This document shows, piece by piece, positions 4,779 through 26,343 of a stretch of DNA of 26,343 bases; position 1 is the stretch's first letter, and each line of letters begins with the position of its first letter. Source of the stretch: a virus; the IMG/VR virus record IMGVR_UViG_3300027797_000118, positions 1-26,343 of that record, one strand, 5' to 3'. The position numbers and the translations under genes were made by a program. The notes beneath the pieces were generated by a model, which saw nothing but the letters and a program-made list of their open reading frames with translations, had not been told where the DNA came from and did not search any database.

Positions 4779-5474
4779 ATGAAATGGTTTAATAATAAGG
4801 TTGAGGAAAGAGAATTAGGATGGGGTGATATAACATTACGTAAGTTTCAATTGATTGATGGTTTTGAACCCTCTGGTGATGAGATTGAGGATATGTTGAC
4901 ACAACTATCCATCTTGACTGATAAAACACTTGAGGAGTTAGATAATCTATCTGTTAAGAAATTAACTAATGAATTAACCAAATATGAATTCTTGAAACAA
5001 GTTCCCGATGAAAAGAAGATTGACGTTGTGGAAGTTGGGGGTAAGAAGTTTGGTCTATGTGATTTGAATGAATTAACCCTAGCTCAATTTGTTGATATTG
5101 AAACTTATGTAAAAGGTGGATTGATTAATAACATCCATAAGATTATGTCGGTTCTTTATCTACCAATTATTAAACAAAACCTTATTACAAAGAAGTATGA
5201 GTTAGAACCCTATGAGACATCTGAAGAACGTGAGACGTTATTATTAGAGGTGGGGATGGATAAAATATATCCTACACTACTTTTTTTTTATCGTATCGTA
5301 AAGGTTTATTTGACGATTATTCAGTTATATTCAATACAGATGGAGGAGGAGAAGATGATGATTATGACAGCGAAGGTGAAGATGGAGATGAAGGGGATGA
5401 ACGAAGAACAATTGAGGATATTAAATACGAAGCTCAACAACGTGTTAGAGAACAATGGAATTGGTATGACTTAA
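4779..5474 (+). CDS. tail assembly chaperone, short form (no frameshift)
   Basis: Without slippage the frame from 4779 continues to a TAA at 5472-5474 and gives 231 residues. The first 170 residues are shared with the long form and look like a Bacteroidota phage tail chaperone: WGDITLRKFQLIDGF near the N-terminus, LTLAQFVDIETYV (100-112) and NNIHKIMSVLYLP (117-129). The last 61 residues (from YRIVKVYL to GIGMT) are methionine- and lysine-rich and have no protein-like pattern, as expected of out-of-frame sequence, though the cell would still make them if no shift occurs. The gene follows the CPPC protein by 14 bases and has the ATATTTA element 12 bases before its ATG. Confidence 0.65.
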   Translation: MKWFNNKVEERELGWGDITLRKFQLIDGFEPSGDEIEDMLTQLSILTDKTLEELDNLSVKKLTNELTKYEFLKQVPDEKKIDVVEVGGKKFGLCDLNELTLAQFVDIETYVKGGLINNIHKIMSVLYLPIIKQNLITKKYELEPYETSEERETLLLEVGMDKIYPTLLFFYRIVKVYLTIIQLYSIQMEEEKMMIMTAKVKMEMKGMNEEQLRILNTKLNNVLENNGIGMT

Positions 5475-5617
5475 TATATAAGATGGCGAATGGTAACTTC
5501 CTAAGTATGGAAAAGGTAGTAACCAAATCCGTTAGAGAATGTTTTACCTTTATGGCATATAAAATACAAATGGGTGGTAATAATAATATAAATACAAATA
5601 ATGATGATGACATATAA
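4779..5617 (+). CDS. tail assembly chaperone, long form made by -1 frameshift (G-T type)
   Basis: The first 170 residues are read in frame from 4779. At 5281-5289 there are nine T residues (codons CTT TTT TTT TAT). A -1 shift here joins a second open frame that begins LSYRKGLFDDYSV at 5288 and runs to a TAA at 5615-5617, giving a 279-residue product. The added 109 residues contain an acidic linker (GGGEDDDYDSEGEDGDEGDE) and a helical tail with WNWYDLIYKMANGNF. This domain has no start codon of its own near its beginning, so frameshifting is the natural way to express it. In lambda-like phages such G and GT pairs keep the tape measure soluble and recruit tube subunits. The domain content and LLFF at the shift site fit that family. 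A sequencing indel in the T run is the alternative. Confidence 0.75.
5281..5289 (+). other. T9 slippery site for -1 ribosomal frameshifting
   Basis: Nine consecutive T residues sit exactly where coding potential moves from the frame of 4779 to the -1 frame. The zero-frame codons give T TTT TTT, a perfect X XXY YYZ-type heptamer. No strong downstream hairpin is obvious; a short direct repeat tatcgtatcgta follows immediately. Confidence 0.65.
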
Positions 5618-6041
5618 TCAAATAATAGACACATTTCAATCAATCGCTAATAGTCACTTACAGATACATAATTTTGGGGATGGACTATTGGAAGATATAA
5701 ATACTATCAAAGAGAATGGTGGTAAGTTCCCCGTGTTATGGGTAATTCCCCAATCTGCTGAGTTAGGTGAGAATGGATTGAATTATAAGATGAGGGTATT
5801 GGTTTTTGATATTGATGAAACTGCTGACACCTTTAGAAGAAACATCCTAAGTGATACTCTTCAAATACTGAATGACGTAATTAAAAATTTTAAGAATGAT
5901 AGTGATGATTACTATGTTGGTGGAGTTAACACCGCATTACCTTTTACTCAAAACTTCGCTGACTATGTTACGGGTTGGTATATTGACATTAATATTGAGA
6001 CGGGTATAGATAATAACCCTTGTGATAGCCCCGAAGAATAA
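5601..6041 (+). CDS. head-tail connector / tail terminator-like protein (putative)
   Basis: The product is 146 residues from the ATG at 5601; ATGs at 5604 and 5607 are equally good, because the start is ATGATGATG overlapping the end of the chaperone's long frame. This overlap supports the reality of the -1 frame. The sequence (IDTFQSIANSHLQIHNFGDG, KFPVLWVIP, YKMRVLVFDID, NILSDTLQILNDVI, WYIDINIET) is an alpha/beta pattern that I associate with a family found just after the tail chaperone or near head completion genes in Bacteroidota phages. Its expected role is as a ring that closes the tail tube or joins it to the head. No catalytic motif is present. The stop overlaps the next start (TAATG). 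Confidence 0.6.
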   Translation: MMMTYNQIIDTFQSIANSHLQIHNFGDGLLEDINTIKENGGKFPVLWVIPQSAELGENGLNYKMRVLVFDIDETADTFRRNILSDTLQILNDVIKNFKNDSDDYYVGGVNTALPFTQNFADYVTGWYIDINIETGIDNNPCDSPEE

Positions 6042-16986: not shown

Positions 16987-19900
16987 ATGGCTGAAGAAAA
17001 AGATATTAACATAAAAATATTAATAGATGCTGCTGATGCAGCGAAATCCGTTGGACAAACAAGAAAAGCGTTAAAGGACTTATTAGTCGCAGCTCAAAAT
17101 GTGTCTGAGGGTAGTCAAGCGTTTAACGACATCAACAAAGCGGCTGGTTCATTAAAAGATAAAATTGGTGACTTACAAGCGAATGTTAAATTCTTCGCTG
17201 ATGACTTACGTGGATTGACTGCCGCTAATGAGATAGCTCAAGGTATTGCCGCTTCATTTGGATTGGTGACTTCAGCATTTGAGGTTTTGGGATTATCAAC
17301 TCAGAGTGCTGAGGAAGCGACTAAGAAATTAATCATCGTAACCACAACAATCAACTCCCTTCAAACAATTGGGGCATTAATCCAAAAGGAAAGTGCTGCC
17401 AATATCGGTTTGACTAATATCGCTCGTGCCATTGGTATCAACTTGGTGGTAGCTGAGACAACCGCAACTGAGGGTCTTACATTAGCTCAGAAGGCGTTAA
17501 ATCTTGTAATGAAGGTTTCACCTATGGGAATACTATTGGGTGTCGTTACCGCTCTTATTGGAGCTTATACTTTATTAACTAATAAAACTGAGAAACAAGA
17601 AAAAGCTGAGAAACAAGCGGCAGAACAGAAGAAGGCGTTAGCTGAAGCTGAAAAAGAGTATGTTGAATTTATGGGTAAGGAAGGTTCAAGTTACTTATTG
17701 TTAATAGAACAATTAAAAGTTACTAACCCCCTATCTAAGGATAGAAAGGATTTGATTGATAAAATCAACTCAACATATGGAACAACATTAAAAAACTTAT
17801 CTGATGAGACCTTATTCCAAAACCAAGTTAATAAGTCATTGGATGAGTATATTCAATTCTTAAAGGTTAAATACTCATTACAAGTTAATGAAGAAAAGAT
17901 ACAAAAATACTTAGGTGAACAAGCTAAGTTGGAGGATAAATTACTTAAATTACAAAAACAAAAATTACTTAGTCAAACCAATTATGATGTTTTAACAAAG
18001 GGATTACAAGATTTCAATATGGCTCAAGCTGAAGAGGCGAGTGGATTAGCTAATGTTAAAAATGAAATCTCTGATGTTGAAGGTAAATTAAAATCAGTTC
18101 AAGGAGCGTTAAAAGTTGTTGTTAGTAGAGCGATTACTGATACCAATACAATCAATTCAACGGGGTTAAGAACCACTGCTGAAACGATTGATAAGGGTAG
18201 TAAGAAAGTTACTAATGTTAATAAAAAACTTGAAGAAGAGAATAAAAGAATTCTTGATGCTCTTATCCAATCACAAGTTGATGCTTTGGAGAAATTAAAA
18301 CTAATCACTATTGAAATAAATTCTGAGAGTGTTAAACCTAAAATAATTGAGGACTTAACTGATTTAGATACTAAATTAAAAAGTATTAAAGATACTCCAA
18401 AAGACCTTATCCCCAATATCAATGCTTTTAGTGAAGCGTATAAAATTGGTATTCAAGAAAACATTGGTGTATTAGATGAGTTTGGGGCTAAGTTTGATGG
18501 TGTAAGAAAAAGATTAAGTGCTGGGTTCTTTGGTAAAAGGGATGAGTTTGTTAAATCAATACAAGAGATTAGAAAGGAGTTTGAGAATGCTGAACCAGCA
18601 CAATTAAACTATATCAATACAATCACCGAAAGTTATTTAAAAGTTAAAGATATTATCACACCATTAGCTTTAGATAGGATGACGATTGGTGTTGATATTG
18701 ATGGTGTTAAAACACAATTAAAGGGACAAGAAGAAATCTTAGGACAATACTTTGAAAACATTAAAGATAAATTACAATTTGAAGGATTAGAGTTATTTAA
18801 GGTTGATGAAAAAAGTATTAAAGAAACATTTACTCAGATTGATGACGTTACTATATCGGTTGCTGATAAGGTAAAAACATTAAATCAAATTCAAATTACT
18901 GGTAAGGAAGAATTAATTAAATTAAATAAACGATTAATTGAAGAAGAAAAAACCTTAATTGACGAACAATCAAAGGGTTTAGATACAACGGCAACAGAGA
19001 CATATATTACAGACGTTAAGAGTGGAATTAAGACATTAGAGGATGGTATTAAAACAATTCAAACAACTATTAAAACTAAAGATTTTAATGTATTAAGAGA
19101 GTTATTTCCAGCTAAGAATTATACTGAGATTACAGATAATTTAGCATCAATTAGAAAACAAATTATTGATTTTAATACTAAAGAATTTATAACGGAATAC
19201 CCAATGGCTAATACCGCTGAAGGTATTAGTCAATCTAAAAAGTTATTTGGTGAGTATTTAGAAGAGTTTGAGAAAGGTGTTATAGTAACAACAAAAAACG
19301 AAAATGCGGTAAGAGCATACACATTCCAAATACAAGAACTTGGGAAGGAATTTGGTAAAACAACCTCTGATATTGATTTATTCTTCACTGCTATTGAGAA
19401 AGATATTACCAATCTTAAACTTCAAGATTTTGATTTTAGTAAGTTAAAAACATCTTATAAAGATTTTATTGATACTTCAAAAGAGAACGATAAAACATTC
19501 GGTCAAAACGTTAAAAACTTTCTTGGTATATTCCCCGATGAAGTCGCTAAGGGTAATTTAGAAGCAACATTAGAGAATAAAAATTTCTTACAAAAGAATA
19601 CTTTATTAATTAATGATTTCTTAATTAAGAATGGGGTATCAGCTGAGTTATTAGCTAAGTTATCAACAGACCAAATCAAGAAGTTAAATAAGTTATTCCT
19701 TAAAGAAAGTATTAAAACTGATGATGATAGTTTAAAAGATAGAAGAGCGAAATATTTAGATTTCTACTCATCATTGGCTTCATCAATAATTAGTATTATG
19801 AATAATATTAGTGATAATATAACTGATAGTAATGTTAGTGTTATCACTAATGCTAAGGATGCCGCTTTGACCGCTTTTGATGAGGAAACTCAAGCGTATG

Positions 19901-20523
19901 AGGATATGAATTCTGATATGTCAAATGCCGATAAGGCGAAGTTGGATAAGGATAGAGCTAGAGCTAAAGAACGTGAAATAATTCAAAAAGAGTATGATGA
20001 TAAAATAAGAGAAGCTGAATATAAAGGTGAAGTTAGAAAGTGGGAATATGCTATGGTTGAAGCTGGTGTTCAAGCGACATTATCAGTTTTAAAGGCATCA
20101 CCTAACCCATTTGGTATGGCAGCGGCAGCAATCTTAGGGACATTATCGGTAGCGGCAATCGCTTCAAATCCCCCTCAGAAATTGGCAACGGGTGGTATGG
20201 TTAAAGGACCTGGTAGTGGAACATCAGATAGTGTTCCAACATTATTATCAAATGGTGAAAGTGTTATCAATGCTAAATCAACCAAAATGTTCTTACCAAT
20301 GTTAGACCAAATTAACCAAGCTGGTGGTGGAGCTCCATTACTTAAATCATCACCAATGATGGCGATGGGAGGTGTAGTTCAACAAACAAACATTGATACC
20401 ACACGTTTGGAGAACTTAATTGCTCAAATGATGGATAGACCTATCAAGACATACGTTGTATCATCAGATATGACTAATTCCCAAAATAAGGATAATAGAA
20501 TTAAACAACGAACAACATTCTAA
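16987..20523 (+). CDS. tail tape measure protein
   Basis: The product is 1178 residues, mostly alpha-helical with long Lys/Glu/Leu/Ile coiled-coil stretches (about residues 200-1000). There is a hydrophobic segment at about 180-198 (MGILLGVVTALIGAYTLL), an Ala-rich hydrophobic segment at about 1035-1062, and then GGMVKGPGSGTSDSVPTLLS (from about 1069), a C-terminal signature very common in phage tape measure proteins. It sets tail length, is threaded through the tube and helps DNA enter the cell. At the usual 1.5 angstrom per helical residue this would allow a tail of up to roughly 175 nm, so a long-tailed siphophage is likely. Unlike in many phages, the tail chaperone gene is not immediately upstream but about 11 kb away. 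Confidence 0.93.
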   Translation: MAEEKDINIKILIDAADAAKSVGQTRKALKDLLVAAQNVSEGSQAFNDINKAAGSLKDKIGDLQANVKFFADDLRGLTAANEIAQGIAASFGLVTSAFEVLGLSTQSAEEATKKLIIVTTTINSLQTIGALIQKESAANIGLTNIARAIGINLVVAETTATEGLTLAQKALNLVMKVSPMGILLGVVTALIGAYTLLTNKTEKQEKAEKQAAEQKKALAEAEKEYVEFMGKEGSSYLLLIEQLKVTNPLSKDRKDLIDKINSTYGTTLKNLSDETLFQNQVNKSLDEYIQFLKVKYSLQVNEEKIQKYLGEQAKLEDKLLKLQKQKLLSQTNYDVLTKGLQDFNMAQAEEASGLANVKNEISDVEGKLKSVQGALKVVVSRAITDTNTINSTGLRTTAETIDKGSKKVTNVNKKLEEENKRILDALIQSQVDALEKLKLITIEINSESVKPKIIEDLTDLDTKLKSIKDTPKDLIPNINAFSEAYKIGIQENIGVLDEFGAKFDGVRKRLSAGFFGKRDEFVKSIQEIRKEFENAEPAQLNYINTITESYLKVKDIITPLALDRMTIGVDIDGVKTQLKGQEEILGQYFENIKDKLQFEGLELFKVDEKSIKETFTQIDDVTISVADKVKTLNQIQITGKEELIKLNKRLIEEEKTLIDEQSKGLDTTATETYITDVKSGIKTLEDGIKTIQTTIKTKDFNVLRELFPAKNYTEITDNLASIRKQIIDFNTKEFITEYPMANTAEGISQSKKLFGEYLEEFEKGVIVTTKNENAVRAYTFQIQELGKEFGKTTSDIDLFFTAIEKDITNLKLQDFDFSKLKTSYKDFIDTSKENDKTFGQNVKNFLGIFPDEVAKGNLEATLENKNFLQKNTLLINDFLIKNGVSAELLAKLSTDQIKKLNKLFLKESIKTDDDSLKDRRAKYLDFYSSLASSIISIMNNISDNITDSNVSVITNAKDAALTAFDEETQAYEDMNSDMSNADKAKLDKDRARAKEREIIQKEYDDKIREAEYKGEVRKWEYAMVEAGVQATLSVLKASPNPFGMAAAAILGTLSVAAIASNPPQKLATGGMVKGPGSGTSDSVPTLLSNGESVINAKSTKMFLPMLDQINQAGGGAPLLKSSPMMAMGGVVQQTNIDTTRLENLIAQMMDRPIKTYVVSSDMTNSQNKDNRIKQRTTF

Positions 20524-21634: not shown

Positions 21635-22243
21635 ATGTGTCAGAATATCAAATTTGGATTAAATATGGATAACTTTGACCCCCAATCAAGGGGGTTAAAC
21701 ATCCTATCATCAGATTTGGAACAACATTATTTATCAGTGTTGGAAGACGATACTTTATTTATAAGTTTTGAAGAGTTAGGTATTACTGAAGAACAAGTAA
21801 ATGACCCACAATATTACGTAAGAGTTGGTGGTATTGATGATGTAGAACACGGAGATAACATTGAGTTCGCAGCAACTAAAGTAATTAACCTATACAGATA
21901 TATTTCTGATGAGTATGGTTCAACTAATGTTGGTCCTAATAGTCGTAATTTCTGTATTAAGTTAGTTAATCGTTCAAGTTTATCAATGTTACCATACCAA
22001 TCAATTATATCATTAAACTCAACTAATCCAGGTCAAGGTCCAAATGGGGTTGACACATACTCAATTTTTGATTGGCGTGGAGGAGCAAGATGTAAACATT
22101 ATTGGGTTAAATACTTCTATCAACAAGATACTAAAAATTTAGTGATAGCTCCTAAATCAGAACAACCTACACAAGTTGGTAATGGTAATGTTCCAAATAT
22201 CCCCGAAAGTAAAAGAAGAGAAGGATGGGGAACTTCTAAATAA
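21635..22243 (+). CDS. Cys/His-containing head-associated protein (putative)
   Basis: This 202-residue protein begins two bases after the protease gene's stop; an ATG at 21665 is a possible alternative start. The core (about residues 100-170) has NFCIKLVNRSS, then MLPYQSIISLN, then YSIFDWRGGARCKHYWVKYFY. The spacing of a first FC, a beta hairpin and a final GGxxCxHxW resembles a small putative zinc-binding domain seen at the C-terminus of MuF-type head morphogenesis proteins, where CRHxW is common. That resemblance is from memory and the rest of a MuF protein is absent. The C-terminal tail is polar (ESKRREGWGTSK). Lying between the protease and the capsid genes, it is likely a minor head component. 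A strong hairpin occurs in its 5' coding region (21674-21699). Confidence 0.55.
   Translation: MCQNIKFGLNMDNFDPQSRGLNILSSDLEQHYLSVLEDDTLFISFEELGITEEQVNDPQYYVRVGGIDDVEHGDNIEFAATKVINLYRYISDEYGSTNVGPNSRNFCIKLVNRSSLSMLPYQSIISLNSTNPGQGPNGVDTYSIFDWRGGARCKHYWVKYFYQQDTKNLVIAPKSEQPTQVGNGNVPNIPESKRREGWGTSK
21674..21699 (+). other. GC-rich hairpin in the 5' coding region of the Cys/His protein
   Basis: TTTGACCCCC, loop AATCAA, GGGGGTTAAA form a 10-pair stem with one G-U pair. It is about 40 bases after the ATG at 21635 and nine bases after the alternative ATG at 21665. There is no T-run. Its strength stands out in such an A/T-rich genome. Confidence 0.45.
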
Positions 22244-23322: not shown

Positions 23323-23850
23323 ATGGCAATATGTTCGGCATTATCCGCTGGTATCGCAAAGAGTTGTGATACTAACACGGGAGGGATTTTAAAAATGTAT
23401 ATCGCTGACTTTGAAAATGTATCTTCAACCACTGAAGTAAGTGGTGAGATTACAGCAATTTCAATGGTTGGTTCTACTAAGTTTTATGAATTCCAATTCA
23501 ACAGAAATACTTCTTCATTTGAAGAAACAATAAACGTTTCGTTGGAAAACGGAACAACCTTCTTTGAACAAAGAGCGACTTTGGTATTATCAAGACGTGA
23601 AAAATTAAAAAGAGAGGCGATTAAGAAATTGGCTGCTGGTCAGAAACAATTGGCTATCATCGTAAAAGATAGTAATAACTTGTATTGGTTTATCGGTTTG
23701 ACTGATGGAGCAATTCTTCAAGAATTATCGGGTGGTTCGGGTGTCGCTAAGGCAGACGCTAATAACTATCAATTGGTATTTGTAGCTCAAGAACCAGCTC
23801 CAATGCCAGAGGTTGATGACGCTATTATCGCAGCGATTATATCTATCTAA
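23323..23850 (+). CDS. major tail tube-like protein, copy 1
   Basis: The product has 175 residues. The start MAICSALSAGIAKSCDTNTGGILKMYIADF follows a pattern (short Cys-containing beginning, then GGI and a strand) I know from abundant virion proteins of Bacteroidota phages that are thought to be tail tube subunits. The rest is strand-rich, with FYEFQFNRNTSSFEETINVS, a helix REAIKKLAAGQKQLAIIV, NNLYWFIGLTDGAILQEL, and GSGVAKADANNYQLVFVAQE, which fits a tail tube fold with its long hairpin and helix. The leader aataaattaaattaaaaata is shared with copy 2. A strong intrinsic terminator follows the stop. Placement after the capsid rather than before the tail chaperone is unusual, so a head decoration role cannot be ruled out. 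Confidence 0.7.
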   Translation: MAICSALSAGIAKSCDTNTGGILKMYIADFENVSSTTEVSGEITAISMVGSTKFYEFQFNRNTSSFEETINVSLENGTTFFEQRATLVLSRREKLKREAIKKLAAGQKQLAIIVKDSNNLYWFIGLTDGAILQELSGGSGVAKADANNYQLVFVAQEPAPMPEVDDAIIAAIISI

Positions 23851-23942: not shown

Positions 23943-24774
23943 ATGGCAATATGTAACGCTTTTAACCAACGGAATTACGACCTCTTGTGGGACGAATACG
24001 GGTGGTATTAAAAAAATGTGGTTAGCTGATTTTGATGTTGTTTCTTACACTCAGAGTGGTGGTGAAGTTTCAGCGATATCAACTAATACACCAACATTAA
24101 TCGCTAACGCTACGGCATCTTGGTCTTTATCAGCATTAGGTGGTGGAGTTTGGGGTTTGAATATACTTACAATACCAGGTAATTATACACAATATTTGGT
24201 AGGAGGAGTAACACAAGTTCGTGCTACTTACATTGATAATTTTGGTGTAACTTATACAATTACTTTTCCTATCATTGGTTCAACTTATAATTCGGGTCCT
24301 AACACAACATCTATTACTCCCGATTGGATTACTTATGGTTTTCAACCATCAGTTGTAGGTAACATCGCTCAAACAAGTAAAAGTGTTTGGATTGGTTCAT
24401 TATTCTATGAATTCCAATTTAACAGAAACACATCAAGTTTTGAAGAAACAATTCAAAATAATATTGAGAATGGAACTACATTCTTTGAACAAAGAATTAT
24501 GTTGATGTTGGCAAGAAGAGATAAGGTTAAAAGAGAAGCTATCATTGATTTATCTGATAGTCAAAAAAGATTGGCTTGTATCATCTTAGATAATAATGGT
24601 CTATATTGGGTATTTGGTATTCAAGATGGTATCGTTCTTCAAGAACTTGCTGGTGGTAGTGGAACTGCTAAAACTGATGCGAATAACTATCAATTAACAT
24701 TTGTAGGTCAAGAAAGTGAACAAGCTTTTGAGATTAGTTCTACATTGGTTAATACTATAGTTGTTAATGTATAA
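23943..24774 (+). CDS. tail-tube-like paralogue, copy 2, with inserted beta-rich domain and an apparent frameshift near its start
   Basis: Removing one T from the tttt run at 23960-23963 gives a 276-residue protein starting MAICNALTNGITTSCGTNTGGIKKMWLADF, which aligns with copy 1 residue by residue. As written, the frame from 23943 stops after 22 codons, and the main frame is open only from upstream of the ATG at 24016. Compared with copy 1, about 80-85 residues (roughly 24090-24390) are inserted between the N-terminal strand and FYEFQFNRN. The insert is strand-like (TPTLIANATASWSLSALGGG, YLVGGVTQVRATYIDNFGVT) and may be displayed on the tube surface. The remaining C-terminal part matches copy 1 closely (FEETIQNNIENGTTFFEQR). 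Possible explanations are a sequencing error, a +1 programmed shift, or use of the A-preceded ATG at 24016. A terminator follows. Confidence 0.7.
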
Positions 24775-25545: not shown

Positions 25546-26343
25546 ATGGGATTAATAGATAACTTTTTTAATAAAAAGACCCCACAAGAAATTGTAACAA
25601 CACCAAGTGGTAGTGTTCCCGACACTATAGTTAATTTAGCTATGGAGGCATCATTACCATTCATATCAGCTCAAAAGAATAGTGAATGGGTTGATTACAA
25701 AACTGATGAGGGAGAACAATATCCAATCTACTTGGAGAAATTATACAACACATCCCCAACACACCAAGCGATTTTAACTACTAAATCGTTATTGGTTGCT
25801 GGTGATGGATTTGAAGTTGATGAAACATTATTAACTGAGAAATCAAAACTTGAACTAAACAGATGGTTAAACTTCTTCAATGGTAAGGATGATATAACTG
25901 AGTTCTTGAAGATGGTTGGAATAGACCAACAATTATATGGTGCCTACGCTCTTGAAGTGATTTGGTCGTTAGATTTCAGTCAGATAGTTAAAGTTAATAG
26001 GATATCACCTAAACACTTGAGAAGTGGTAAATTCGTTGATGGTGAGATTAGAGAATACTTCTATAAAAGAGATTGGAATGATAGAAGAGAAGAGGCGGTT
26101 TGTATTAATGTATTTGATATAACCGATAACGAAAATCATCGTCAATTAATATATGTTCCAAATCAATTGATAAGTAATGATTACTATGGTGAACCATCAT
26201 ATTTGGCATCAACAAATTGGATACAATTAGAAGGTCAAACGGGGTTATTCTATAAGTCATTCATTGAGAATGGATTTAACCCTTCAATGATAGTTCAATT
26301 CTATCGTAAACCAGCGTCATTAGAAGAAAGAAGACAAGTTCAA
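25546..26343 (+). CDS. portal protein (3' end outside the window)
   Basis: An open frame runs from the ATG at 25546 to the window edge, giving 266 residues. After a polar N-terminus (MGLIDNFFNKKTPQEIV) it shows YPIYLEKLYNTSPTHQAILTTKSLLVAGDGF, FLKMVGIDQQLYGAYALEVIW, KVNRISPKHLRSG, IYVPNQLISNDYYGEPSYLA and SFIENGFNPSMIVQFY. These are the expected order for a phage portal: the clip and wing region, the 'GxPxY/GEPSY' motif and the following helix. The portal is the dodecameric DNA gateway that the terminase binds and that starts capsid assembly. Most phages place it right after the large terminase; here it lies 22 kb downstream, after the capsid. Confidence 0.88.
   Translation, partial: MGLIDNFFNKKTPQEIVTTPSGSVPDTIVNLAMEASLPFISAQKNSEWVDYKTDEGEQYPIYLEKLYNTSPTHQAILTTKSLLVAGDGFEVDETLLTEKSKLELNRWLNFFNGKDDITEFLKMVGIDQQLYGAYALEVIWSLDFSQIVKVNRISPKHLRSGKFVDGEIREYFYKRDWNDRREEAVCINVFDITDNENHRQLIYVPNQLISNDYYGEPSYLASTNWIQLEGQTGLFYKSFIENGFNPSMIVQFYRKPASLEERRQVQ

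Follow-up and report, generated by a model that had tools for sequence, protein, structure and literature searches.

Organization of the locus

The window analysed here is the whole of IMG/VR virus record IMGVR_UViG_3300027797_000118, a stretch of 26,343 nucleotides whose genes include those for a terminase, a tape measure protein, a protease, a capsid protein and a portal protein. A probable tail assembly chaperone gene in this window is read in two frames that meet at a run of nine T residues (T9). Its features, all on the + strand, are listed below together with the neighboring gene and the presumed partner.

4779–5474 (+): zero-frame open reading frame (ORF) of 231 aa, the short form, made up of a 170-residue N-domain and a 61-residue zero-frame tail
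4779–5288 (+): N-domain, a probable tail assembly chaperone domain (AlphaFold2 mean pLDDT 93.6; weak profile matches in some relatives)
5249–5278 (+): predicted RNA hairpin (−9.1 kcal/mol), its 3' end two nt short of the run
5281–5289 (+): T9 run, the proposed slippage site; T9–T11 at 194 of 196 non-redundant homologous sites
5282–5617 (+): −1 frame from the run to the stop at 5615–5617, encoding the C-terminal part of the long form
5339–5401 (+): acidic linker in the −1 frame, with 13 D/E among its 21 residues
5402–5614 (+): predicted helical C-terminal domain (C-domain), with a W-x-W-Y motif kept in relatives
5601–6041 (+): next gene, which starts within the last part of the −1 frame; its homologue adjoins other tail genes in relatives
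16987–20523 (+): tape measure protein (PHROG 25241, E = 5e-16), the presumed partner, 11 kb downstream

Across the run the zero-frame codons are CTT TTT TTT TAT. The −1 frame is open from upstream of the run, and its stop lies past the ATG at 5601 of the next ORF. Counting along the two frames, a switch at the run would produce a 279-residue long form (170 + 109). A first-pass annotation made from the letters alone had described the T9 run, the zero-frame ORF and the ATG overlap of the −1 frame with the next gene, and all three are present in the sequence. Counting both strands, the window holds a single run of nine T's against 4.2 expected from shuffles. T9 by itself is thus unremarkable in this AT-rich window, and comparison with relatives must decide its significance.

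Two further observations concern the distal part of the window. Positions 21635–22243 and 25546–26343 both match the portal family PHROG 33693, the contig 3' end corresponding to the N-terminal part of the family and 21635–22243 to a 38-residue stretch near its C-terminus. The translations of the adjoining genes at 23323–23850 and 24016–24774 share a long similar stretch (around SSFEETI...NGTTFFEQR), apparently the result of a duplication.

Conservation of the −1 switch

Relatives were taken from three wider viral scans and from searches of bacterial genomes. The viral scans contributed the best 80 of 216 matches, the best 80 of at least 502 and at least 68 in the third, and so represent a part of the relatives. 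Our scripts sought a T run near the expected end of the N-domain, favoring a long run if there were several, and kept run-less sites apart. Sites are called non-redundant after removal of identical 60-nt flanks; some loci are one contig fetched repeatedly. Loci L005 (no match), L168 (contig stops before the site) and L181–L183 (spurious, see below) were set aside.

The relatives listed comprise 272 site records, 196 of them non-redundant, with run lengths of T9 (147 sites), T10 (44), T11 (3) and T6 (2). At least nine T's are found in 42 of 43 clusters at 50% N-domain identity. One of the two T6 sites, L112, is a broken contig that diverges from its T10 siblings within the run and has the C-domain in no frame; in the other, L317, the two domains share a frame.

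Cross-trained models place the C-domain in the −1 frame at 161 of 165 viral and phage loci. The four loci without such a call are L029 and L171, which are the same site and reach only E 0.006 in the −1 frame, L102, where the contig ends just past the run, and the broken L112. The same placement is obtained at 41 of 44 bacterial-genome loci, the other three (L093, L185, L209) being one T10 prophage site of Dysgonomonas sp. 520 with a single ORF, and at 61 of 63 further viral sites, where the exceptions are L317 and L307, whose contig is likewise cut just past the run. The −1 placement holds across several run registers and lengths. A C-domain model trained on 53 relatives from beyond the window's own clade, when applied to 300 stop-to-stop frames, gave E = 3e-22 for the −1 frame of the window and 0.22 for the next best frame.

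Through the terminase, three contigs that carry a homologue were reached: L002, with 67% terminase identity, and L003 and L004, with 39%. All three share the position and register of the T9 run as well as the −1 domain. The L003 zero-frame tail was considered as the true C-terminus and ruled out by an all-frame comparison. A homologue is also present in the Nonlabens isolate phages P12024S and P12024L, where the register of the T9 run and the −1 domain are again shared. They differ in that N-domain identity to the L003 query is about 26% and in that the P12024S gene directly follows the terminase gene.

Other searches returned less. The window protein alone as query retrieved no relatives from viral contigs or from phage records, and the next genes as query in a distant DNA search found none among phages. 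Of five other queries run by tblastn against a phage collection, two were without match and three retrieved the Nonlabens phages only. No further copies of the gene were found in 108 genomes of the order of G003. A phylum-wide search of 395 genomes gave three weak matches (L181–L183) that proved spurious, with no such gene on reading.

Since the C-domain is conserved in the −1 frame and the same run recurs in relatives, the two domains are parts of one protein, with access to the −1 frame conserved at the run. Judged by this comparison, the T run is a conserved recoding site that would yield a short and a long version of what is probably a tail assembly chaperone. The first-pass annotation had called the site a −1 programmed frameshift. 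There is strong support for access to the −1 frame at this site being conserved and selected; a ribosomal mechanism is possible, and slippage of the polymerase fits somewhat better, as discussed below.

The strong acidity of the linker, which is real in the window, is not family-wide. The most acidic 20 residues contain at most five D/E in 60 of 88 representatives, against 12 in the window and 15 in L008, and a strongly acidic linker is a property of the window's own clade.

Some relatives lack the long run. L309, L310 and L312 are run-less single ORFs holding both domains; L311 is run-less too and lies outside the four loci that were read. In all four of these (L309, L310, L312 and the T6 locus L317) a single ORF carries both domains, and these relatives may therefore be able to do without the short form. 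The genome of Dysgonomonas sp. 520 combines a prophage copy (L093/L185; T10, single ORF) with a related copy (L184; T9, split), which together form a natural pair for the question of mechanism.

Predicted function of the two domains

The AlphaFold2 model of the N-domain has a mean pLDDT of 93.6. It matches no PDB entry at E 0.001, and at the same threshold it matches 33 viral structures that are uncharacterized or unnamed, the P12024S gene product included. The predicted model of the C-domain is helical, as first proposed from the letters, at low to middling confidence (mean pLDDT 67). Sequence searches against solved structures gave nothing convincing for either domain.

Profile matches are scattered over the family. 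Phage_TAC_7 is matched weakly in 10 of 60 members (best E 6e-4) and the tail protein family PHROG 166 in 11 of 60 (best 1e-6), in neither case by the window member. PHROG 32199, a family of unknown function, is matched in 43 of 60, the window member at E = 3e-4. Five members from bacterial genomes matched no Pfam family at E 0.1, and a search of NCBIfam gave nothing relevant. A tail assembly chaperone gene usually sits just upstream of the tape measure gene; the window gene does not, since 11 kb separate it from the start of the tape measure gene at 16987. The earlier label of tail chaperone is nevertheless plausible and is our best guess for the gene product, drawing on the weak family matches in some relatives, the two-product layout and the tail gene neighborhood.

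Comparison with known systems

The layout resembles that of lambda G/GT and similar pairs in dsDNA phages, which, in the excerpt of PMC5009743, share an N-terminus and enter the −1 frame late in the first ORF to make the long product. The tail gene neighborhood is a further likeness, and here the two products are predicted from comparison. The present gene differs from lambda G/GT in carrying a homopolymer of nine or more T's rather than only a heptamer, in lying 11 kb from the tape measure gene and in matching named chaperone families weakly.

A second set of parallels is provided by genes that use transcriptional slippage, namely Thermus thermophilus dnaX (A9), IS1447 (A9) and Citrobacter rodentium tssM1 (A11) (excerpts of PMC5009743, PMC1088944, PMC6211511 and PMC4256274). 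According to these excerpts, an A/T run of at least nine residues allows a frame switch that gives two functional lengths, and in IS1447 a stem-loop stands ahead of the run (PMC6211511). Our case differs in being a T run rather than an A run, in a phage gene, and in its kind of evidence, which is sequence comparison here and RNA or protein data for those genes.

Mechanism of the frame switch

We consider slippage of RNA polymerase at the T run to be the probable, if by no means certain, source of the long form. One start codon would then serve two proteins. Ordinary reading would give the short form, consisting of the N-domain and the zero-frame tail. At T9 the polymerase, presumably that of the host, would slip and produce some mRNAs with one extra U (or two fewer), on which ribosomes would continue in the −1 frame of the DNA into the acidic linker and the helical C-domain. 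If lambda G/GT is a guide, the tape measure protein may be bound by many short copies and a few long ones, and the long form may recruit the tail tube protein.

Polymerase slippage is somewhat favored because split genes never have fewer than nine T's, such runs are depleted elsewhere, the RNA downstream is unstructured and, in a subset, a hairpin abuts the run. In 263 kb of other coding sequence from the same loci, A or T runs of at least nine residues were seen three times against 25 expected; for T runs alone the count is 0 against 2.6 expected, too few to judge by themselves. Avoidance of homopolymer runs appears at length nine in many bacteria, according to an excerpt of PMC1088944. Nine is no strict threshold, since IS1447 slips on seven A's with a stem-loop (PMC6211511, in part), and homopolymers of eight or longer are named for slippage in the excerpt of PMC3711429. 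Part of the run could also be preserved by Phe/Leu constraints in two overlapping frames.

Upstream of the run, the 24 nt immediately before it are more stably folded than control windows from the same genes (z −0.73 versus −0.13, p = 0.0006, for representatives that are not fully independent). The hairpin at 5249–5278 of the window has z = −2.58, with 4 of 200 shuffles folding as well; it is bulged and scores 0 in an ungapped stem scan. Within the window's clade, the upstream fold has z of about 0 or above in three of seven members. Over 65 representatives, the upstream stem ranks in the top 5% of positions in its own gene in 10, with a median rank of 0.23. In one T10 subfamily the run is directly adjoined by a stem in which 82% of cells pair and an A-U to G-C exchange occurs in 4 of 13 sequences; its covariation score is reached by 12 of 500 shuffles, and its count of doubly changed pairs (1) by 325 of 500. 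Most family members are without a notable upstream stem, which is far from universal. As a separate observation, among the windows tested in the 65 representatives, the one 100–150 nt past the run has the most stable fold (mean z −0.71).

The main competing explanation, which we regard as a substantial but lesser possibility, is classical −1 programmed ribosomal frameshifting at the heptamer T TTT TTT (5282–5288), the mechanism of lambda G/GT and further phage tail chaperones. A perfect X XXY YYZ heptamer stands in register in the window and in all 65 representatives, all split sites that were scored shift in the −1 direction, and the layout agrees with known tail chaperones as excerpted in PMC5009743. 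Weak Shine-Dalgarno-like motifs, somewhat enriched before the run (17 of 65, against a control rate of 0.14; strong motifs in 1 of 65), would favor the ribosome as well, although Flavobacterium johnsoniae, a member of the Bacteroidia, seldom uses Shine-Dalgarno signals according to the excerpt of PMC8710568. Frameshifting on a heptamer needs only seven T's, yet split genes never have fewer than nine. The last base of the heptamer is T in 65 of 65 representatives, though TTC accounts for 104 of 382 upstream Phe codons. The downstream RNA structure that is usual, if not obligatory, for ribosomal frameshifting is absent from the 60 nt after the run, with a mean z of −0.13 in 88 representatives and z of +1.85 in the window.

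The remaining explanations carry far less weight. With DNA-level phase variation, mutation of the run length would turn the long form on and off between generations, and the one Dysgonomonas genome that pairs a single-ORF T10 prophage copy with a split T9 copy would fit. A phase-variable run should often show both phases, yet just one scored T-run site unites both domains in one frame, so we think phase variation very improbable. Both forms would still be expected from that pair under polymerase slippage. Much the same small probability attaches to two separate proteins, the second begun in or after the run by re-initiation and without a frame switch. GenBank gives the P12024S pair as two hypothetical proteins, in keeping with re-initiation, but the conserved −1 alignment starts inside the run, and the run-less relatives are single ORFs. 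A sequencing error or a decayed gene might be suspected at a homopolymer within a metagenomic contig; its probability is negligible and it is refuted by comparison, as the same run and frame relation occur in independent contigs, bacterial genomes and two isolate phages and the C-domain is conserved as protein. The first-pass annotation had itself pointed to related phages as a check and to eight or ten T's uniting both parts as the result that would speak against a frameshift. Among the relatives this arrangement is absent, except in the one T10 prophage copy.

Slippage by RNA polymerase remains our preferred reading. The literature matches listed contain nothing on a phage tail chaperone made by transcriptional slippage. 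For T4-like chaperones, Vladimirov (2022) reportedly suggests an alternative to translational frameshifting.

A dispersed phage gene set in Dysgonomonas-type genomes

The T-run gene also occurs in bacterial chromosomes. It is present in 28 of 101 genomes of the family of G001, once in 25 and twice in three; G001 holds locus L091, whose record names Dysgonomonas capnocytophagoides, and the family is presumably the Dysgonomonadaceae. In G001 and G431, the two genomes compared, genes for terminase, chaperone, tail, tape-measure-like, protease and capsid proteins stand apart among host genes, recognized as such by eye, over about 130–150 kb and on both strands. Members of the set, the T9 chaperone included, stand singly or in small groups over more than 100 kb. 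The observation covers loci L090–L098, L215–L247 and L250–L264, the last at the following places.

G001:C1, 620–760 kb: dispersed gene set
G431:C1, 2825–2985 kb: dispersed gene set

Eight genomes chosen for having the gene were compared. A strong terminase match is found in 8 of 8, with a second one in G427 and G408, a tail protein in 8 of 8, a tape-measure-like protein in 8 of 8 and a protease in 7 of 8. The capsid gene is found in 21 of 23 genomes with the chaperone and in one of two without it, the match in G406 being partial. The capsid protein and terminase of the window are 26% and 32% identical, respectively, to their Dysgonomonas-type homologues.

Gene transfer agents are domesticated phages with dispersed operons, of which few are known outside the Alphaproteobacteria, according to the excerpt of PMC12946183. 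The dispersed, conserved and mostly single-copy set of phage genes resembles such an agent and is a candidate for one. Among the literature matches listed, none described an agent of this kind in Bacteroidota.

Implications

The long protein is missed by present annotation, as in P12024S, where two hypothetical proteins are given, and the case offers a clean RNA-versus-protein test of how the second product arises. Taking the observations together, we tentatively suggest, as an overall picture about which we are less than evenly convinced, that across a large group of Bacteroidota tailed phages slippage of RNA polymerase on a T run, and not the ribosome, determines the tail chaperone ratio, and that the same slip-dependent gene has been kept in a scattered set of Dysgonomonas chromosomal genes resembling an undescribed gene transfer agent. 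Recoding of tail chaperones is usually treated as ribosomal. A phage group in which the run never falls below nine T's would mean that the same two-product design is reached by another molecular route.
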